A stretch of DNA of 64,000 bases, taken from assembly GCF_027595985.1 (NCBI RefSeq), contig NC_073307.1:13945432-14009431 (forward strand), given 5' to 3'. The position numbers and the translations under genes were made by a program. Shown here piece by piece: positions 4,221 to 63,326 of the stretch. Every line of letters starts with the position of its first letter. The stretch's first letter is position 1. The DNA is from Sorex araneus. Its lineage: Eukaryota > Chordata > Mammalia > Eulipotyphla > Soricidae. The notes beneath the pieces were generated by a model, which was not told the DNA's origin, did not search any database, and saw only the letters and a list, made by a program, of their open reading frames with translations.

Positions 4221-4614
4221 ACAGTTTACTTCCTTTTTGTTCCTAACTGCTTATTGCCTATGTTATACATTTTATTTACAATATCTGGTGTGTTTCCATT
4301 AGAGTTACAACCAACTTACAATAATTAATAATTAACCAACGTTTTATGAGAAAATAGAATCTGAAAGAAAAAGAACATGATAATTATTGCATCTAATATA
4401 TTCTAGGCATTGAGTTATCACCCCTATATATATGCAAAGACATTATAACTATAAACTGTCCTTAAACCATGAAGATGCCACTTTTATACACTTCTAATAG
4501 TGTGAGAAATAAGATCAAATGGGTAATTTAATTTTCACTAGAATCTTAAAATGAAAGGGAAGCCTAAGGAAAATCAAGGGAGTAGGCCAAGGTAGGAGAA
4601 AATGTATCACTTCA

Positions 4615-5141
4615 CTTGTCATCACTTGTCATCCCGTTGATCTTTGATTTGCTTGAGCGGGCGCCTGTAATGTCTCCATTTGTCCCTGTCACGTGCTAGT
4701 GTAGCCCAGTGATATCTGCTCAGTCCAGGACCACGAGGAGCCTCAAACCGTTCATTCAGGGTTTTGACGAAGAAGTCGAACCATCTCGTAGATGGGCGAC
4801 CACGTGGTCTTTTGATGTCCCATGGAATCCAGTCAGTAACAGCTTTAGTCCAGCAGTCGTCTCTGAATCTCATTACGTGTCCAGCCCACCTGATTTTTGA
4901 CATCTTGGCAAATGAGACAGCGTCCCTGATTCTTGACCGTCGACAGAGGTTGGAACTCCGGATTCCTTCTCTCACTTGAGTGAAAGGTGATACTCCAAGC
5001 ATAGCTCTTTTGATTCCTCTTTGGGATACCCGAATAGCGTTCTCATCCTGTTTTCATAGAGCCCAGGTCTCTGAGGCATATGTTAGTGCAGGAAGAACAG
5101 TGGAGTATCTAACAATGGTATCTGCTCGCTCCGGATAAAAA
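4615..5141 (-). mobile_element. RTE-clade LINE fragment, ORF C-terminus and 3' end (copy 1)
   Basis: A 5'-truncated RTE-type non-LTR retrotransposon. The reverse strand encodes the end of the endonuclease/reverse-transcriptase polyprotein. The upstream part reads TYASETWAL, a stop, then KQDENAIRVSQRG. The rest is a 126-codon open stretch (4,622-5,002) containing RIRDAVSFAKMSKIRWAGHV, DIKRPRGRPSTRWFDFFVKT and HWATLARDRDKWR, ending QRDDK. These motifs (IRWAGHVMR, GRPxTRWxDFF, HWATLARDRDxW) are typical of RTE elements of strongylid nematodes, and of RTE1_Sar, reported as horizontally transferred between nematodes and the common shrew. The in-frame TGA at 5,054-5,056 and the missing 5' part make it inactive. 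The element ends in GATGACAAGTGATGACAAGT. Confidence 0.88.
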
Positions 5142-7602: not shown

Positions 7603-8010
7603 TACTGTATCATTGTCATCATCCCGTTGTTCATCAATTTACTCGAGCGGGCACCAGTAACGTCTCTATTACACTCAGCCCTGAGATTTTATCAGCCTCT
7701 GCTTACTCGTCTTTCCCAACGATTGGAGGCTCTTTCAGGGTCGGAGAATGAGACCTATCGTTACTGTTTTTGGCATATCAAATACGCCACGGTAGCTTGC
7801 CAGGCTCTGCCGTGTGGGTGGGATACTCTCAGTAGCATGCTGGGCCCACCAAGAGGTATGTACATATATGTTACTGTACTGGGGATATAAATGCACCATA
7901 GGGAACTTGCCAGGATCTCCTAACCAGGCAATAGACTCTCGGTGGTTTGTCAGGTACTCCAAGAGGGAGAACTAGGCTATTAGATGTCATGCAGCCGCAT
8001 TGAGTCTTTT
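7603..8010 (-). mobile_element. RTE-tailed element, 3' body only
   Basis: A reverse-strand 3' portion of the long element. It shows CATCATCCCGTTGTTCATCA, CGAGCGGGCACCAGTAACGT, CTTTCAGGGTCGGAGAATGA and TTTTTGGCATATCAAATACG, and ends near GAACTAGGCTATTAGATGTC. The 5' monomer is absent. The segment GCAATAGACTCTCGGTGGTT and the following GTCAGGTACTCC repeat the body motif a second time, so part of the body seems duplicated inside this copy. Confidence 0.7.
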
Positions 8011-8539
8011 ATGATAGAAAGTTGGAAATCATTTTCTACTTTTTCCCCCTGGGTGAGATTTTTCTACCAATTTTGAGATCGATGAAAAGGGAATGGAGAT
8101 GGCTCTGAAGTTTATAGGAGGTGGTATCTCAGAAATGACCTCTTCCTAATAAGAGGGATCTTTACCTTGATGCCTACTCATTAGATTCAAGTTTGTTCAT
8201 TCAATCGTTCAATTGACCATAACTGAGCATTTGCTGTGTGGTAAGCTCTGCACTGGGACAAGTCTTAAATTGATTTCTTGAAAGCTTAGAAAAGTAACAT
8301 AGCCTGATATTAAAATGAACTTTAAGAAAAAAAGTCAAAGCTTAGTTTTGCCTGCTAGTATGGCTTCTCTGAAGAAACATTCTGGTGACCTAAATAAGAT
8401 AGTGTTTATCCTATTTTCCTCTTTTCCCATTCCAAGTTAACTATTTTTTATTCCTTTCCCCCTATTTTTTTAATAAAGCATATAATAAGACTATTTTTTT
8501 AAAGAAACCAATCCTATAAGTATTTATTCCCCTATACTT

Positions 8540-13954: not shown

Positions 13955-14205
13955 GGGGCTGGAGCAACAGCATAGCAGTAAGGCGTTTGCCTTGCATGCG
14001 GCTGACCCGAGTTCAATTCCTCTGACCCTCTCGGAGAGCCCGGCAAGCTACCAAGAGTATCTCGACCGCGTGACAGAGCCTGACAAGCTACCCGTGGCAT
14101 ATTCGGTATGCCAAAAACAGTAACAACAAGTTTCAGAATGGAGACGTTACTGGTGCCCACTCAAGCAAATCAATGAGCAAGGGGATGACAGTGACAGTGA
14201 CAGTA
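13955..14205 (+). mobile_element. RTE-tailed SINE (tRNA head + RTE tail)
   Basis: The head GGGGCTGGAGCAACAGCATA carries A-box and B-box (AGTTCAATTCC) promoter elements. It is followed by CTCTCGGAGAGCCCGGCAAG, GGTATGCCAAAAACAGTAAC and the tail CAAGGGGATGACAGTGACAG. The flanks TAGGTAATG at 13,947-13,955 and 14,206-14,214 form a target-site duplication. There is no poly-A tail. Confidence 0.88.
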
Positions 14206-15117: not shown

Positions 15118-15191
15118 ACTGTTGAGAGACGTTACTGGTGCCCACTCAAACAAATCGATGAGCAACGGGGTGACAGTGACAGTGACTGTTG
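15118..15191 (+). mobile_element. Solo RTE-derived tail with short target duplication
   Basis: Only the last 60 bp or so of the RTE-tailed family is present (GAGACGTTACTGGTGCCCAC through GATGAGCAACGGGGTGACAG). It is flanked by ACTGTTG at 15,118-15,124 and 15,185-15,191, a possible 7-bp target-site duplication. This looks like an extreme 5' truncation during target-primed reverse transcription. Confidence 0.6.
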
Positions 15192-17896: not shown

Positions 17897-18366
17897 GAGC
17901 AGGTGCCAGAAACGTCTCCATTCGTCTGTGTCACGTGCTAGTGTAGCCCAATGATATCTGCTTGCTCCAGGAACATGAAGAGCCTCAAACGATTCATTCA
18001 GGGTTTTGACGAAGAAGTCTGACCTTCTCGTAGGTGGATGGCCACACGGTCTTTTGATGTCCACTGAAATCCAGTCGGTAACAGCTCTAGTTCATTGTTC
18101 GTCTCTAAATCACATTACGTGTCCAGCCCATCTGATTTTTGATGCCTTGGCAAACGAGACAGCGTCCCCGATTCTTGATCGTCGAGGAAGGTCGGAACTC
18201 CAGATTCCTTCTCTCACTTGAGTGAAACGTGATACTCCAAGCATAGCTCTTTCAATCCCTCTTTGGGATACCCAAATAGTGTTCTCATCCTGTTTTCATA
18301 GGGCCCAGGTCTCTGAGGCGTATGTTAGTGCAGGAAGAACGGTCAAGTATCTAACAGTATCTAACC
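17897..18366 (-). mobile_element. RTE-clade LINE fragment (copy 2)
   Basis: A second reverse-strand copy of the RTE C-terminal region, aligning with copy 1 almost throughout. It carries SRIGDAVSFAKASKIRWAGH-like coding, DIKRPCGHPPTRRSDFFVKT and RYHWATLARDTDEWRR. It is 5'-truncated within about 50 bp of the same point as copy 1. It also lacks the final 40 bp, being cut off after the segment matching GGCACCTGCTC and abutting the A-rich tail of a SINE. It shares with copy 1 the in-frame TGA in the ETWAL*KQDEN segment (18,296-18,298). It lies inside an old L1 remnant. Confidence 0.87.
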
Positions 18367-19076
18367 TAAAAACAGAATCCTTAGACATCAACAAAAACAA
18401 CCAAGACAAAAGCATGTGAGAGATTTAAATAACATTTCTCAAAAAATATATATAAATATAAGCACATGGAAAAACATTCAACATCAAAAAATCTTTAGGC
18501 AATGGAAATGAAAATCTCAACCCACAGCTAATATTTACATAATAATGAAAAATAGAAGGTACAAGACAGGTATATTCACTTTAACTGCTCTTATTCAGCA
18601 CAGCATTACAAATCTCACAAATAAGGCAAGAAATAAATAAATCCAAATTGGAAAAGAAATCAAATTCTTTGTAGGTGTTACAATATTATACATATAAAAC
18701 TCCAAAGGCTTCTCAAACACAGAAAGTAGTATAGTACTGTGGTAGGCCACAAAATTAATGTACAAGATTCTTTCACATATCTATCCACAAACAACAAATC
18801 AGGAGGGAAAAAATCGGAAAACAGCACATTTATAATACATCAAAAAGAATGCCTGGGAATAAACATGAGAGCAAAAGGACTATACTATAAAAATTCTAAG
18901 ATTGCTCAAAGATCCTCTTACCGACAGCTTTATACAAATTCGGGACAGCTCTTATAAAAATTCCAATGGTATTTTTATAAAACAAATGCCACTAAAATTT
19001 GTATGGAATTATCGAAGACCCAAAATAGTTGGAGCTATATCCTGAGATGAAAAAATAGAGATATTCTTTTACTACA
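18367..19076 (+). mobile_element. Old L1 ORF2 remnant, part 1
   Basis: Strongly decayed L1 coding sequence. ACATTTCTCAAAAAATATAT and CACATGGAAAAACATTCAAC match the ORF2 3' region. From about 18,560, CAAGAAATAAATAAATCCAA, GTACAAGATTCTTTCACATA and TTTGTATGGAATTATCGAAG match the RT and downstream region. The order suggests two separate L1 insertions. Numerous stops and gaps are present. Confidence 0.65.
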
Positions 19077-21809: not shown

Positions 21810-21871
21810 AGACAGAAGCTCTATATAGCTACCATTGCCTTCTGTATAGTTACTGTAGCCTTCATTTTCTA

Positions 21872-22062
21872 ATGATCATATCATCATCACCATCATCATC
21901 CCGTTGATCGTCAAATTTCTCTAGCGGTCTCAGTAACGCCTCCATTCATTGCCCTAGCCCTGAGATTTTAGTAGCCTCTCTCAACTTGTCCTTCCCAACG
22001 ATGCTGCATTGGAGGCTCTTTCAAGGTCAGGGGAATGAGACACAGCTTGTTACTGGTCATGA
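21872..22062 (-). mobile_element. RTE-tailed element, 3' 190 bp
   Basis: A reverse-strand truncated copy. It has a CAT-rich tail, CCCGTTGATCGTCAAATTTC, GCCCTGAGATTTTAGTAGCC, GGAGGCTCTTTCAAGGTCAG and AATGAGACACAGCTTGTTAC. It corresponds to the last part of the long element and stops at the GTTACTG motif. Confidence 0.7.
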
Positions 22063-24534
22063 TTAACATTTTTACTACTATATTATAGATCTCATATTTA
22101 ATGTCCTCAGTCAGAGCATCAAACAGTCAAGATTCTCTACCACAGATGAACTAAATTTTCCATTCCAAAATATTCTAAATATCTGATTATCTTTCCAGGT
22201 TAAATTAAAGTTTTTCTTTTAATAGGAAATACCAAGAAAACTCCAAATAAATTCCTGGGTTCTATACATACTCTTCTGATATAGTATAGGTACATATACC
22301 TGAGTATGAGGGTCATTTTAAAATAAAACTTTTTATGATGCACTATTAGCAATTGTTTTATTTATATGCCCATTTTATCTACCTATATACATAGGGCTGG
22401 ATAAGCATTTATTGGGTGGAAGGGATTGTGAGTTTACAAAGATTTACAAGCCTTGGTTCAAATGTCTCATCTACCAAGGTGATAGTATTAAAAGGTAAGG
22501 CCTTTGAGAGGTAATGAGAACACAGTATGGAATCCTCACAAACAAAAATCATAGCATCATTGTTGTGTTCCCCTGGGGAACTAACCATTTACTATAAACC
22601 AGACTCAGATTTATTTTTTCTCAGCCATGAGTTCCTAAGAAATTCTTCATGAATCCATAGGCATGAAATGACACAGAATGACACTATACAATAGTAAGTA
22701 GCATTGAAGGAATCTGTTGTATGTGCTCATGTAACTTTTGGGGGCCTTTTGAACTAGCTACTTTTCACTTACATCTGATAACTAACCACTATTTCATGTT
22801 AAAATGGAAAGCTTGGTGGTTCAGATAACACTAGTTTTTGATGGAAATCTGAGAACAGCTGATATCTGACGTCCAATGTCTAGATCTTCAGCATCTACTA
22901 GAAAACTTGGAAATATTTCCTAAGAGAATGAGTATCTGCAAAACAGAGCAGAGATTTATGAAACCTCTAGAAATCTGCCCTTTCGGTGTCTTTATAGTAT
23001 TTGCCAAAGTCTCATAGTGTATCACTTTATTCTAGTGGTTTTTCAAGCATCCTCAGAACCGCTCCTTCATAAAACTGAAGTGGTTGCAACTCAAATAAAC
23101 CTTCTCTTGGTCCCCATTTAAAACTGACAATCTACAGTTTACTCAGTAAATATCATTTAGTGAGACATATCATTCTCACTCAAATATGATGTCTTTTTAT
23201 TGGCTGGTGGCTCAAGGTCCTGCAACTTGACCTGAATCCCTAAAGTGGTCATTCAAATGACTGAGCTCCTGGATCTCTGAATACTCAAGGATTCCATAAC
23301 CTGTTCTTTATCTCTCATCTACCTTACTAAGGTTCTGCTCATCAGAGACAATAAAAATAATACTAGCATTGTCAGCATGTGTAATACTGTAGAGAATGTC
23401 AGGATAATCTCCGTGGAAGACATGATTAAATCAGGAAATATAATAGAGCCTTGAAGTAAGGCTGTGAAAGCAAATTATTTATTGACCATGCCCAGGCAAA
23501 CAACATTTGTGATCCCTGCATATTGATATGGAAGATATCATGGAAGATATGATCTGGGTCAATAGCTGCACATTTGGCGCCAAGATTAATGTTGATTTTT
23601 CTTTAGCAGAAGTACCACACCTTGAGCAGCAGCTAAAATGGAAGCCACCACTGATTAAATATGATACACTGTGGTCATTCTCCAAGGCCCATGTAAACAA
23701 GCAACCAAGCAAAACAAATACAGATGTGTTTGCGTCTTATGTATCTTGGGTATTGGCAGTAATCTCCAAAAATCATTCAGAAATGCTGTACTGCTTCAAA
23801 TTCCACCCCCCCCCCCACCAGGGAGAGAAATAACAAGGTCTTCTACTTGGTCCTTCCTAGTGCATATCTTTACTTCATGAGTCAGAGAGCTGAAATAATC
23901 GATTTTCTAGTCTGCAAGTATGTCAACTCAAAGACATATTTAGTAACTTAGTAAATACACACTGCAGTCAGGGGACCTACTGAGTCAGGGTGCTTAAATT
24001 TAGGTCAAAAACAGCGCATGGGACGGCCCTAAGTTCTACTTTTACAACCACCAAGTTTTCCTTCACTGCTGTTCACGAGCCGATCAATCAAAAAACAATG
24101 ATGGGTTCAGAAAGCATTTATCAGAAACAAGCCAGCAGGTTGGAAGAGGAGAAGCTCCTGTCTTCAAAGGAACTTTCATGTCTGAATCATCACCCAAAGT
24201 AGTTATTGTATAGAAATAACAAGGAAGTAAATTTTTTAGAAAAGGCGGGTTGCAAACCAGCTGCCACGAGGATGATCAATAAAATTTCTGCAGAGCTGGT
24301 CACTTGAGGCACACTCCAACTTACCTGTAAACCTAAACAAAGGTTTCAGAGGGTAGTTAACCTGTCCTTCTTGTAGGTTTTGGAGAAGACAACTTAAGAA
24401 CAGTCAAAGGGTTTTAGTTTTATCTCTTTCACTCTTAGTAAAATACCTCCTAAGTTCCCTTAGTAAAAAAACCTGCCAGAACAGGTCTGAACATTTTTCA
24501 GACATCAATTCAGAGCTCAAAAATGGGCTGTTTT

Positions 24535-26209: not shown

Positions 26210-26416
26210 TTTTGGTTTTTTTTGTTGTTGTCGTCGTTTTTGGGTTTTTTTTTTTTTTTGGTTTTTTGGTAACCCCGGCGATGCACAGGGGTTACTCCTG
26301 GCTCGTGCACTCAGGAGTTCCTCCTGGCGGTGGACCATATGGGATGCTGGGAATTGAACCCGGGTTGGCTGCGTGCAAAGCAAATGCCCTACCCGCTGTG
26401 CTATCACTCCAGCCCC
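26210..26416 (-). mobile_element. SOR-type SINE
   Basis: A reverse-strand copy with a T-rich tail (GTTTTTTTTGTTGTTGTCG), body CGGCGATGCACAGGGGTTAC and head complement GTGCTATCACTCCAGCCCC. CAACCATGG and CAACCACGG (26,201-26,209 and 26,418-26,426) are a one-mismatch target-site duplication. Confidence 0.9.
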
Positions 26417-28366: not shown

Positions 28367-28615
28367 TTGGGCTGGAACAATAGCACAGTGGGCAGGGCAT
28401 TTGCCTTGCAAGCGGCCAACCCAGGTTCAATTCCTCCGCCCCTCTCGGAGAGCCCGGCAAGCTACTGAGAGTATCTCGCCCTGCATGGCAGAGCCTGGCA
28501 AGCTACCCGTGGCATATTCGGTATGCCAAAAACAGTAACAAGTCTCACAATGGAGACATTACTGGTGTTTGCTAGAGCAAATCGATGAGCAAAGGGACAA
28601 CAGTGACAGTGAGTG
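28367..28615 (+). mobile_element. RTE-tailed SINE
   Basis: The tRNA-like head (GGGCTGGAACAATAGCACAG, B box GGTTCAATTCC) is joined to the body CCTCTCGGAGAGCCCGGCAA and a tail ending in ACAGTGACAGTG. The flanking duplication TGATTTATTA is at 28,357-28,366 and 28,616-28,625. Confidence 0.88.
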
Positions 28616-30116: not shown

Positions 30117-30365
30117 CTGTATCACTGTCACTGTTGTCCCGTTGCTCATCAATTTGCTCGAGCAGGCACCAGTAATGTCTCCATTGTGAGACTTGTTGTT
30201 ACTGTTTTTGGCATATTGAATATGCCCCGGGTATCTTCCAGGCTCTGCCGTGGGGGCGGGATACTCTCAGTAGCTTGCCGGGCTCTCCGAGAGGGAGGGA
30301 GGAATCAAACCTGGTCGGCCATGTGCAAGGCAAACACCCTACCCGCTGTGATATTGCTCCAGCCC
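30117..30365 (-). mobile_element. RTE-tailed SINE
   Basis: A reverse-strand copy. It starts with the complement of the GACAGTGA tail (ATCACTGTCACTGTTGTCCC) and continues through GTTACTGTTTTTGGCATATT to the head complement (TGTGATATTGCTCCAGCCC). It is near full length and well preserved. Confidence 0.87.

Positions 30366-34811: not shown

Positions 34812-34866
<55 letters not shown>
34812..34866 (+). repeat. TCA/CAT trinucleotide microsatellite
   Basis: Eighteen perfect TCA triplets forming the expanded 3' tail of the reverse-strand RTE-tailed element copy b. Confidence 0.95.
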
Positions 34867-34868
<2 letters not shown>

Positions 34869-35525
34869 CGTTGATCGTCGAATTTCTCAAGCAGTCTCAG
34901 TAACATCTCCATTCATCCAAACCCTGAGATTTTAGAAGCCTCTCTCCACTCATCCTTCCAATGATGTAGTACTAGAGGCTCTTTCAGGGTCAGAGGAATG
35001 AGACCCAGCTTGTTACTGGTTTTGGCATATTAATACACCAGGGGGACCTTGCCAGGCTCTCCCATTTGGGCAGGAAACTCCCAGTAGTTTGCCAGGTTCT
35101 CCCAGAGGGAGAAGTAGGTTATAAGATATAACCTTATATAACCTTCGGGACCGCACTCTTCTGGGAGCTGGCTTTTAAGTCTCTGGATGCTGGCCGTTGA
35201 CAGGATTACACGACGCCAGGGGCAGTCCCTGGGAATGACTACCTAGCTGCTGGGAGATGGGAAATCTGGGCGGAGGAGGCCCAGTCCCGATCCGAGCAAC
35301 CTTGGAGGTCTCAGCTCCGGGTCCCACACACCTGGGTTCCTCTGCCGGTTCCTGCATGCTCGTCAAACGTGTGGAGAGGGGCCTTGAGCATGGCTGTGGC
35401 TAGGCTCCGGAAGTCTTTGGCCGCCGGGAGCTCTGCTCAGGGTGGGGAGGGAAGCTGGAGCCCATCCCCTCTGAGGAGGCCCTGGGGAAGACAGCCAGGC
35501 GTGTGGGCAAGAGACTCTCTTTTAT
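34812..35525 (-). mobile_element. Long RTE-tailed non-autonomous element, copy b
   Basis: A full reverse-strand copy of about 710 bp. Read on the minus strand it starts GAGTCTCTTGCCCACACGCC and passes through the promoter-like monomer (CTCAAGGCCCCTCTCCACAC). It then reaches the TATAGCCTA-type junction and the shared body, and ends in the RTE tail. The tail has expanded into 18 perfect ATG/CAT triplets (34,812-34,866). It differs from copy a by point changes and small indels only. Confidence 0.75.
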
Positions 35526-37740: not shown

Positions 37741-38436
37741 TGCTACCCACAGAGTCTCTTGCCCCTGCACCTGGCTGTCTTCACCAGGGCCCCCTGGAGC
37801 AGGGCAGGTTGAGTTTCCCTCCCCGCCCTGAGCAGAGCCTTGGCAGCCGAAGACTTCCATAACCCAGCCACAGCCATGCTCAAGGCCCCTCTCCACATGT
37901 TTGGACAAGCCTCATGCATGAAGAAACCGGCAGAGGAACCCAGGTGTGCGGGACCCGGAGCTGAGATCTCCAAACCTGTTCAGATCAGGACTGGGCCTCC
38001 TCCACCCAGATCCCCCATTTTCCAGTAGCTTGGCAGCCACACCCACAAACTGCCCCTGGTGCTGTGTAACCCATCAATGGCCAAGATCCAGAGACTATAA
38101 AACAATACTCCCGGAAGCATGCAGCCACATTCGTGGCCATGTGAACTCTTGTAGCCTAGTTCTCTCTCTCTCTCAGAGAACCTGGCAAGGTACTGAGAGC
38201 ACCCCGCACGCATGGCAGAACCTGGCAAGCTCTCCATGGTGTATTCAATATGTCAAACACAGTAACAATGATGGGTCTTACTTCCCTTACCCTGAAAGAG
38301 TCTCCAATGCATAACCGCTGGAAAGAACGACTAAAGAGAGGCTGCTAAAATCTCAGGGCTAGGATGAATGGAGATGTTACGGCACCTGCTTGAGCAAATC
38401 GATGATCAACGGGATGACAGTGATACAGTGCCCCAC
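37741..38436 (+). mobile_element. Long RTE-tailed non-autonomous element, copy c
   Basis: A near-complete copy starting around AGAGTCTCTTGCCCCTGCAC. The monomer includes GCCACAGCCATGCTCAAGGC and AGATCCCCCATTTTCCAGTA, and ends GAGACTATAAAAC. The body begins GCATGCAGCCACATTCGTGG and TAGCCTAGTTCTC. The 3' end reads CTTGAGCAAATCGATGATCA followed by ACGGGATGACAGTGATACAGTG. The tail can be translated as LLEQIDDQRDDSDT, matching the RTE C-terminus (PLKQIKDQRDDK). Confidence 0.78.
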
Positions 38437-39071: not shown

Positions 39072-39310
39072 GAACTGTAGCACTGTCATCCCGTTGTTTA
39101 TCAATTTGCTCCAGTAACATCTCCATTGTGAGACTTGTTGTTACTGTTTTTGGCATATCGAATATGCCACAGGTAGCTTGCCAGGCTCTGCTGTGCAGGC
39201 GGGATACTCTCAGTAGCTTGCAGGGCTCTCTGAGAGGGACGAAGGAATTGAATCCGGGTCGGCCGCATGCAAGGCAAACTCCCTACCCGCTGTGCTATTG
39301 CTCCAGTCCA
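39072..39310 (-). mobile_element. RTE-tailed SINE
   Basis: A reverse-strand full-length copy with a 10-bp or so internal gap in the tail (TTGCTCCAGTAACATCTCC lacks the GAGCGGGCAC segment). The flanks TAAATAAGTA at 39,062-39,071 and 39,313-39,322 are a target-site duplication. Confidence 0.87.
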
Positions 39311-40680
39311 ACTAAATAAGTAAGTAAATACATAAGTGGGGGCTGGGCAGAGAAAAAGAAAACTAGCTTAAGTTGGGTTCGTGTTTTTAAGGCAGGGATG
39401 GAGCAAACTGTTCTGAGAACACAATCAGGACTTGGTGTCCTCCCGCTCTGCTTTGCTCCGCTCCTTCTCAGCAGGCTTCCCCCAGGCGATGGTAATGAGA
39501 GCCACTGGCAGATGCAAGTCCTCTCAGCATAGAAATTTGGAGAGAAAGATAATATTTTCCCACAGGTCCAGATAAAACCTAAAAAAGGGTGCTGACTGAC
39601 ACTGCTTATCTATCCCTGAGATAAGCTGTCTGGAAGAAGGGGAAAGTGTGGTCACAAAATATAAAGTTCCTCAGTAACACATCAGAGAAGTTACCAAGAA
39701 GACAAGGGTGAGGGGGTGATTTATTAAAACATGGGATGCATATCCCTTCCTGTCTTTCCATCTTCATGGAATGATAGCTTCCATCTTCATGGGAGATAGC
39801 TCAAAGCACTGTTTACAGACTTTGTATGTGGTAGGCCTGCGTTTGGTCCGTGGGACAGTATAGAACCCAGCACCACAGGAAATGACCTCTAAGCAGTTAG
39901 GACTAACCCCAGAGTTCTGCTAGGTTTGCAAGGTCCCATAAAATAAAAAGTTAATAGACTAGACACATCTTGGTTCTGACTGTTCTCTGGAACTCTGCAG
40001 CATGTTTATGTGTACAGGGATGGTCATTTACTATAGACTGGCCACTCACACTGTTAACTCTCAACCACTGAAAGTTGAAATTGAAATAGCAACAACAGCG
40101 AGTGGTTGGAATGAAAACTCATGGCCACCTGCGGAAGAAGGAAACTCTATGCCTTCCTGCTGCTTAGGTCCCCAGTTCTTCTCTATATAGTTCTTCAGCT
40201 ACTTTATGGTCAGGAAGTAGTTTGTCAGCTATTTTCCCTTCATCCTTAGAGGTAAATTGTTAGTGGGAGTCTATCCAACTGCCACTTCTTGAGAGCAGAA
40301 GCACTAGTTGGTGCCTAAGAGCAACCAGGCCCAGCAACCAACCTCCATCCAAAAAAGTAAATAAATAAATATTAGCATACAAGGTTCAACATGTAACACC
40401 ATGGTAGTAATCTCTTATACAAGGGCTTGATGACTCCAGGCTGAGAGACAAATCTTCACACATCTTCCTCTTAGGAAACTTTCCATCACTTTAAAAAGAT
40501 TATTCATAACAAGCAATTCAGAATAATTTAGGACCTGCTTGGAGGGAAGGCTATGGTGGTGGTGGGAAAATTTGAAATCATGGTGGTGGAAAAGTACAAT
40601 GGTGTTGGGATTGATGTTGGAATATTTAATGTAATATATTATTGTTTATTGCTATTGTTTATCCAAATTATTATTTATCC

Positions 40681-41223
40681 AAGCCTGCTTGGATAGGGAC
40701 TGGGCCTCTTCTGTCCAGATCCCCCATTTTTCAGTAGCTAGGTGGTCACACCCAGAAACTGCCCCTGAAGCTGTGTAATCCCATCAATGGCTAACATCCA
40801 GAGACTATAAAACCAAGCTCCCAGAACAGAGTGACGCAGAATCTCTTGCCCCAGTGCTAGGCTGTCTTCACCGGTGCCCCTCGAAGGGGGTGGGTTGAGT
40901 TTCCCTCCCCACCCCGAGCAGAGCCCCCACAGCCAAAGACCTCTGGAACCCGGCCGCACGACATCTTATAGCCTAGTTCTCCCTCTTGGAGAACCTGGCA
41001 AGCTACCAAGAGTTTTCTGCCCACATGGGAGAGCCTGGCAAACTCCCTGTGGTGTATTCATATGCCCAAAAGAGTAACAATGGTGGGGCTCATTCCCCTG
41101 ACCCTGAACGAGCTTCCAATGTGGCACTGTTGGGATAGAAGAGTAAAGAGAGGCTTCTAAGAACTTGGGGCTAGGACGAATGGAGACGTTACTGAGACTG
41201 CTCAAGAAAATCGACAATCAACG

Positions 41224-41259
<36 letters not shown>
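40681..41259 (+). mobile_element. Long RTE-tailed non-autonomous element, copy d (tandem 5' monomers)
   Basis: The 5' end is rearranged relative to the other copies. The downstream half of one monomer (GATCCCCCATTTTTCAGTAG to CCAGAGACTATAAAACC, ending near 40,833) is followed directly by the beginning of a second monomer (CAGAATCTCTTGCCCCAGTG). That second unit is cut short at AACCCGGCCGCAC and continues into the shared body. This implies a tandem head-to-tail monomer arrangement in the source element. The 3' end is the RTE-like tail ending in about eleven GAT triplets (41,225-41,258). Confidence 0.72.
41225..41258 (+). repeat. GAT trinucleotide microsatellite
   Basis: About eleven GAT triplets that grow directly out of the GGGATGA tail of RTE-tailed element copy d. 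Confidence 0.95.
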
Positions 41260-50745: not shown

Positions 50746-50922
50746 GGGGCTGGAGCGATAGCACAGCGGGTAGGGCGTTTGCCTTGCACGCAGCCAACCC
50801 GGGTTCGATTCCCAGCATCCCATATGGTCCCCTGAGCACCGCCAGGCGTAATTCCTGAGTGCAGAGCCAGGAGTGACCCCTGTGCATCACCGGGTGTGAC
50901 CCAAAAAGCTAAAAAAAAAAAA
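50746..50922 (+). mobile_element. SOR-type SINE, youngest copy
   Basis: The best-preserved copy of the poly-A SINE. The head GGGGCTGGAGCGATAGCACA has an A box (TAGCACAGCGG, 50,759-50,769) and B box (GGTTCGATTCC, 50,802-50,812). The body is CATCCCATATGGTCCCCTGA to GGGTGTGACCCAAAAAGC, followed by an A-rich tail. A perfect 18-bp target-site duplication (AGAAAGAGATTTATATTA) flanks it at 50,728-50,745 and 50,923-50,940. The head resembles tRNA-Ala(UGC): CCTTGCACGC corresponds to the anticodon arm. Confidence 0.93.
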
Positions 50923-56887: not shown

Positions 56888-57152
56888 GAGGGCTGGAGCC
56901 ATAGCATAGCGGGTAGGGCATTTGCCTTGTGCGTGGCCAACCCGGGTTCGATTCCTCTGTCCCTCTTGGAGAGCCTGGCAAGCTACCGAGAGTACCCTGT
57001 CTGCACAGCAAAGCCTGGGAAGCTCCCTGTGGCGATATCCCAAAAACTTGATACACCAAAAACAGTAACAACAAGCCTCACAATGGAGACGTTACTGGTG
57101 CCCGCTCGAGCAAATCGATGAGCAACGGGTGACAGTGATACAGTGATACAGT
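56888..57152 (+). mobile_element. RTE-tailed SINE
   Basis: The head GGGCTGGAGCCATAGCATAG has a perfect B box (GGTTCGATTCC). The tail CGATGAGCAACGGGTGACAG is followed by three CAGTGATA-type repeats. A small local duplication in the body adds CGATATCCCAAAAACTTGA. Short flanks TTGAGG on both sides suggest a target-site duplication. Confidence 0.85.
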
Positions 57153-59961: not shown

Positions 59962-60127
59962 TTTGTTTTGGGGTCACGCCCAGCGCTGCACAGGGGTCAC
60001 TCCTGGCTCATGCACTCAGGAATCACCCCTGGCGGTGCTCAGGGGACCATATGGGATGCTGGGAATCGAACCCGGGTCGGCCACGTGCAAGGCAAACGCC
60101 CTCCCCGCTGTGCTATCGCTCCAGCCC
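59962..60127 (-). mobile_element. SOR-type SINE at the edge of the YTHDC2 CpG island
   Basis: A well-preserved reverse-strand copy (GTCACGCCCAGCGCTGCACA to GTGCTATCGCTCCAGCCCC). The duplication CTCTGTTCT is at 59,953-59,961 and 60,128-60,136. It sits in a TG/CT-rich tract about 580 bp upstream of the YTHDC2 start codon. Confidence 0.9.
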
Positions 60128-62890: not shown

Positions 62891-63000
62891 AGTGCATATG
62901 GAGTGAGTCCCCTAAAATAGAACAGGAAGAAATTGTATATATTTTTTGAGGGTCACTCATCCAAAGGGGGGAACAAGTAATTTATTTATTTAAGCCATCC

Positions 63001-63246
63001 GGGCTAGAGCAATAGCAGAGCAGTAGGGCGTTGGCCTTTCACGCGGCCGACCCGTGTTCGATTCCTATGCCCCTCTCGGAGAGCCCGGCAAGCTCCCGAG
63101 AGTATCCCGCCCGCACGGCAGAGCCTGGCAAGCTACCCGTGGCGTATTGGATATGCCAAAAACAGTAACAAATAAGTCTCACGATGAGAGACGTTACTGG
63201 TGCCCGCTCGAACAAATCGATGAGCAGTGGGGTGACAGTGACAGTG
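63001..63246 (+). mobile_element. RTE-tailed SINE in YTHDC2 intron 2
   Basis: A young full-length copy. The head is GGGCTAGAGCAATAGCAGAG, and the body contains GAGAGTATCCCGCCCGCACG. The tail translates as YWCPLEQIDEQWGDSDSD, still resembling the RTE protein C-terminus. The 13-bp duplication ATTTAAGCCATCC is at 62,988-63,000 and 63,247-63,259. Confidence 0.9.
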
Positions 63247-63326
63247 ATTTAAGCCATCCAAATTGAAGATCTCTTAAAAGTAGAAACTTTTATTTTTTAA
63301 ATACTGATATTAGGATTGCTCTGAAG

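Follow-up and report, generated by a model that had tools for sequence, protein, structure and literature searches.

A SINE of the shrew Sorex araneus whose 3' tail is homologous to the last codons of an RTE-clade LINE

Repeats at the locus

The stretch of the Sorex araneus genome analysed here, 64 kb in length and called the window below, carries a short interspersed element on its forward strand at positions 63001-63246. The element is flanked on both sides by the perfect 13-bp target site duplication (TSD) ATTTAAGCCATCC, at 62988-63000 and 63247-63259; none of 250 random loci score as high. The initial annotation had drawn the element as 63001-63259, a span that does locate it, with the downstream TSD included in its end; the SINE itself stops at 63246. 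This focal copy consists of a tRNA-type head (63001-63066), a body (63071-63181) delimited by blastn, and a 3' tail (63182-63246) homologous to the last codons of an RTE-clade LINE and ending in a GACAGT repeat.

Searches with blastn within the 64-kb window find six near-full copies of this SINE and one tail-only copy. On the forward strand lie the copies at 13956-14200 (13-bp TSD with one mismatch, equalled at 0 of 250 random loci) and 28369-28612 (10-bp TSD, 1 of 250), and on the reverse strand the copy at 39074-39309 (13-bp TSD with one mismatch, 0 of 250). The TSDs are unconvincing at 30121-30365 (reverse strand) and 56890-57147 (forward strand), where 55 and 19 of 250 random loci, respectively, do as well, and at the tail-only copy at 15123-15185 (forward strand, 94% identical to the focal tail; 13 of 250). 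The consensus of the six copies is 246 nt long, starts with GGGCTGGAGCAATAGCACAG, and is laid out as the tRNA-type head, a body of about 110 nt and an RTE-matching 3' segment of about 58 nt.

Two copies of an RTE-clade LINE are found, both on the reverse strand. The one at 4605-5139 is truncated at its 5' side and preserves the C-terminal codons, with the stop codon at 4622-4624 and an in-frame TGA at 5054-5056. Its TSD, CAGTTTCTCCTACATT / CATTTTCTCCTACCTT, agrees in 14 of 16 letters, a result equalled at 1 of 250 random loci, and begins about 17 nt past the stop codon. The second copy, at 17897-18375, shares 84.8% identity with the first across 479 columns; it is broken at both ends, reads DEWRRFWHLL and then breaks off without the last codons, and has an unconvincing TSD (62 of 250 random loci). 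One and the same codon is an in-frame TGA in both copies (WAL*KQ), and several relatives have WALRKQ there; a defective common source that was moved in trans may explain this, or CpG decay that occurred more than once. No RTE 5' end was recognised within the 64-kb window.

With the 143 codons before the RTE stop as a query, 44 proteins were matched among 65 candidates. The best relatives are proteins of strongylid nematodes (Nippostrongylus, 69%; Necator, 66%; also Haemonchus and Heligmosomoides). One gene model from Sorex araneus itself (P0033, F-box only protein 36 isoform X3) is among the relatives and includes a piece of the RTE's C-terminal coding sequence. No Pfam family was assigned to any of the five proteins given, i.e., the RTE C-terminal piece and four relatives. 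Scans for relatives at the DNA level found none in viral contigs (three scans) or in genome contigs (one scan); eight pattern matches were returned in one scan, and none of these was confirmed.

RTE1_Sar, likewise a mammalian RTE with nematode affinity, is reported in the accessible text of PMC6542046 to have been transferred between nematodes and shrews; the direction from nematode to shrew is favoured there, unconfirmed by its authors. The closest relatives of the window RTE are likewise in strongylid nematodes, and by these protein relatives the window RTE resembles RTE1_Sar and is probably the same element.

The SINE tail and the C-terminal codons of the RTE

Local alignment of the SINE consensus with the RTE copy (560 nt given) falls at the RTE 3' end only, with 51 of 59 columns identical, seven mismatches and one gap, for a score of 76. 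The best of 2000 dinucleotide-preserving shuffles scores 31, so that none of the 2000 is as good; after removal of the terminal repeat, the score is 63 compared to 30 for the best of 2000 shuffles. Against the RTE fragment, the last 62 nt of the SINE reach a score of 72; the highest value that they reach with any of 172 repeat-free chunks of the window is 23. The focal copy taken singly is 78% identical to the 4605 RTE copy over 55 columns (blastn). Thus the match of the SINE 3' end to the last RTE codons, proposed in the initial annotation for the last 65 bp, stands with a length of about 58 nt, and the homology is confined to the terminal segment. The terminal repeats that follow resemble each other but differ in sequence, the SINE having GACAGT and the only RTE copy with an end having GACAAG.

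Translated in the RTE frame, the consensus gives the peptide QWRRYWCPLEQIDEQRDDS, which scores 93 (BLOSUM62) against the Nippostrongylus end, while none of the other five frames exceeds 21 with any of the five ends compared. Against the end of the window RTE copy, RHYRRPLKQIKDQRDDK, the same peptide scores 62, below the value for Nippostrongylus. The focal copy reads ...RRYWCPLEQIDEQWGDS in this frame, with a frame break directly before. Hence the earlier claim that the SINE can be read in the RTE frame is borne out by the match of that frame alone, with the correction that the consensus peptide starts with Q and not K. The initial annotation would have been refuted by an RTE whose 3' end lacks the segment; at the protein level, RTE ends in nematodes retain it: RRYWRPLEQIDDQRDDR is the C-terminal end of P0001 and P0014 (Nippostrongylus), and RRCWRPLEQVDDQRDDR is that of P0007 (Heligmosomoides); the ends of the Necator and Haemonchus proteins are more diverged.

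The shared segment is RTE coding sequence, not 3' UTR, because only about 17 nt separate the RTE stop codon from the TSD; the suggestion that the SINE tail came from the coding end of the LINE, not just from a 3' UTR, is therefore supported. The window RTE has essentially no 3' UTR, in line with the RTE elements of Lepidoptera, for which an extremely short 3' UTR is described in the accessible part of PMC2887409. A SINE that carries the 3' end of such an element must carry codons, and a tail taken from the coding end is then to be expected.

A head shared with the A-tailed SINE

The first 66 nt of the SINE consensus are identical at 61 of 66 positions to the consensus head of another SINE of the window, which ends in an A-rich tail and which we take to be Sor. 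We presume, from the familiar box patterns, that the motifs at consensus positions 13 and 56 of the RTE-tailed SINE are A-box-like and B-box-like, respectively, and a head of the RNA polymerase III promoter type is predicted on this basis. ARAGORN calls tRNA-Ala(tgc) in the heads of three A-tailed copies (26339-26411, 50751-50823 and 60051-60123), and the single Rfam match at the gathering threshold is the tRNA model on one of these copies.

Beyond the head, neither body nor tail of the RTE-tailed SINE aligns with the A-tailed SINE. The consensus of the former has no A-tail and no TTTT, and its end, GATGACAGTGACAGTGA, is unlike the A-rich 3' tail of a Sor-type SINE. If the A-tailed SINE is indeed Sor, it is Sor with which the RTE-tailed SINE shares its head and from which it differs in body and tail, as far as the consensuses from the window tell. 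Sor is classed as a T- SINE in the accessible text of PMC8466645.

Longer RTE-tailed elements and the origin of the body

The body, consensus positions 71-181, is common to a set of longer elements, up to about 650 nt, at six loci. These elements have no tRNA head; at their 3' end stands the same RTE tail, which is set off from the body by an additional middle of about 85 nt. The order 5' part, SINE-type body, middle and RTE tail is seen at 2195-2840 and 37749-38430 (forward strand) and at 34850-35518 (reverse strand); positions 63071-63171 of the focal SINE are 86% identical to the first of these (blastn). At 40600-41240 (forward strand), sequence comparison finds the internal blocks in a different order. 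The related element at 7609-8013 (reverse strand; 13-bp TSD with one mismatch, 2 of 250 random loci) contains, upstream of its body, another body-like stretch that has diverged. The locus at 21864-22078 (reverse strand) is the 3' part of such an element, with the end of the body, the middle and the tail, so that the body proper is present at five of the six loci.

Two types of tail occur among these elements: (GAT)n runs at 34850-35518, 40600-41240 and 21864-22078, and ACAGTG-type repeats in others. They may possibly derive from two RTE lineages. The (GAT)n-ended insertions seed microsatellites.

Because the body as well as the tail is common to the longer RTE-tailed elements, an internally deleted RTE, rather than capture of the tail alone, is the probable source of the SINE. 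By analogy, the body would derive from the RTE 5' UTR. The tail of the AviRTE SINE joins pieces of a 5' UTR and a 3' UTR, according to the accessible text of PMC4844689, and Bov-A2, MAR4, RTESINE1 and RTE1-N1_LA are listed with RTE or BovB 5' ends in that of PMC3747384.

The most serious alternative is that the SINE captured the RTE tail only. Its body would then be of some other origin, and the longer elements would owe body and tail to the SINE, or have the body in common with it by coincidence of descent. It can draw on the fact that there is no RTE 5' UTR at hand in which to place the body, and on a protein search with the 5' part of a long element that found nothing, a weak result since the query was hand-edited. 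Yet body, middle and tail are collinear in the 650-nt elements, which also retain slightly more RTE codons than the SINE (DEW compared to W) and show greater mutual divergence than the SINE copies (0.223 for three of the six, under the second of the two CpG rules described below). With RTE-SINEs that contain 5'-end pieces already on record (PMC4844689 and PMC3747384, in the parts accessible), we regard capture of the tail alone as unlikely and favour descent from an internally deleted RTE.

Target sites, divergence and the enzyme of mobilisation

Fourteen elements were examined for TSDs, 12 of them in the test calibrated against 250 random loci. Clear TSDs, each equalled by at most 1 of 250 random loci, are present in four of the six full SINE copies. 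The 34850 and 21864 copies of the long elements, outside the calibrated test, have TSD scores of 4.8 and 3.25, which fall short of the 95% point for random loci. At all four clear SINE sites there is a run of at least three T at positions -15 to -4, compared to 22% of 20000 random positions; the insertion site of the 4605 RTE copy has no T-run. The four clear TSDs start with AGTG, TGAT, TACT and ATTT, and none with AAAA. Both the T-runs and the TSD starts fit the Tn-TA signature reported for insertions of the RTE clade (PMC13295347, accessible part), on a small sample.

Under one CpG rule, the mean pairwise distance at non-CpG sites is 0.127 among the six SINE copies, and the two RTE copies are 0.128 apart; under a second rule, the values are 0.141 and 0.112, and 0.255 for eight of 11 near-full A-tailed SINEs. 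The ages of SINE and RTE, whose overlap the initial annotation had proposed as a check, thus overlap by similar divergences that on the RTE side come from a single pair, since the window has only two RTE copies.

A conserved RNA hairpin in the tail was considered and dropped: RNAalifold predicts no pair on 14 tails, and the folding of five tails against shuffles is mixed. The SINE consensus (z -1.34), one SINE copy (-2.00) and one long element (-0.67) fold somewhat better than shuffles, and the tails of the RTE copy (+1.15) and of another long element (+1.34) fold worse.

The shrew SINE, which ends in copied RTE codons, very probably borrows the RTE enzyme for its copying, as the initial annotation predicted. 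The TSDs in four of six copies, the lack of an A-tail, the upstream T-runs and the similar divergence of SINE and RTE all fit such mobilisation. The element has several features of an RTE-mobilised SINE, namely a predicted polymerase III head, a 3' end homologous to that of an RTE LINE from its own genome, and TSDs of the RTE type, the latter in a small sample and with no T-run where the RTE copy itself inserted.

Mammalian SINEs are usually moved by L1. If it also moved the present one, as it may move the A-tailed SINE with the same type of head, the RTE-derived tail would be a passenger. The RTE-tailed SINE, however, is devoid of an A-rich tail, and none of its clear TSDs has the AAAA start, so that we consider L1 a very improbable driver. 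Least credible, to the point of being negligible, is that the similarity arose by chance or that the RTE acquired its end from the SINE: the shuffles, the window background and the match in a single frame all oppose this, nematode RTE proteins have the same C-terminus, and we found no evidence in its favour.

A model of the SINE and its working

We put a probability of about 0.85 on the following reading: the SINE is made of three parts, i.e., a tRNA-type head shared with a host SINE, the body of the RTE-tailed elements and a tail of the last RTE codons, is mobilised by the RTE, and arose via an internally deleted RTE. The anatomy, homology, reading frame, TSDs and divergence of the SINE are direct observations, and to these we add, by inference, its transcription, its recognition by the enzyme and the RTE origin of its body.

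The tail would represent the last 18 or so codons, with the terminal repeat, of an RTE-clade LINE resembling RTE1_Sar. In the proposed history, an RTE gave rise to an internally deleted RTE of about 650 nt, from which the middle of about 85 nt was lost and to which a tRNA head was added. RNA polymerase III would transcribe the SINE from this head, the RTE protein would recognise the RTE-like 3' end of the SINE RNA, and target-primed reverse transcription would take place at T-rich sites. Since the RTE is almost without a 3' UTR, the template end used by its enzyme would sit inside the end of the RTE's own coding sequence, and the SINE would keep these codons as an RNA signal, or template, and not as protein.

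More tentatively, and with slightly less than even odds in our estimation, an RTE that crossed between parasitic nematodes and shrews has been exploited in the shrew by an undescribed SINE lineage with the head of a host tRNA-SINE. The signal for the reverse transcriptase would be the RTE's own last 18 or so codons; one stretch of RNA would then be under protein and RNA constraint at once.

Relation to known RTE-mobilised SINEs

The AviRTE-mobilised SINEs of birds are similar in several respects: they have a promoter head and a bipartite tail from two RTE ends, and horizontal transfer has placed their RTE in both nematodes and a vertebrate lineage. They differ in that their 3' piece, of about 40 bp, is 3' UTR, whereas that of the shrew SINE is coding sequence, and in that their 5' piece comes from the RTE, while the 5' piece of the shrew SINE is a putative RTE piece (PMC4844689, in its accessible text). 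Bov-tA and Bov-A2 are, respectively, a tRNA-headed and a headless SINE that end in the same 3' end of an RTE-clade LINE, BovB (PMC3747384, likewise). This pair closely parallels the shrew SINE and the 650-nt elements, with another LINE and in another host. The tail of Bov-tA may also overlap the last BovB codons, in which case coding capture in the shrew would not be unique.

The word SINE has no occurrence in the main text of the RTE1_Sar paper (PMC6542046). Shrews are absent from the accessible part of the 2013 review with a table of SINE/LINE pairs (PMC3747384), and the accessible parts of PMC4476161, PMC8384839 and PMC6009670 contain no pair of a shrew SINE and an RTE. Nor was a shrew SINE linked with an RTE described among the listed titles and starts of abstracts. 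The family may already be catalogued in Repbase, Dfam, supplements or subscription journals.

Significance

RTE-mobilised SINEs built on the plan of Bov-tA and the AviRTE SINEs are already known, and the shrew SINE adds a member. Over and above the initial annotation, the analysis shows that the SINE shares its head with another family and is probably bipartite in construction, explains coding capture by the absence of a 3' UTR, and connects the SINE with a LINE for which horizontal transfer has been reported. If our reading is true, a SINE family is tied to a LINE that reportedly passed horizontally between parasites and a mammal, and the delay from the arrival of the LINE to its exploitation by the SINE would therefore be measurable across shrew species. 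It would also be a clean case of a LINE enzyme whose template end overlaps its own coding end, from which synonymous constraint in the last codons is predicted.
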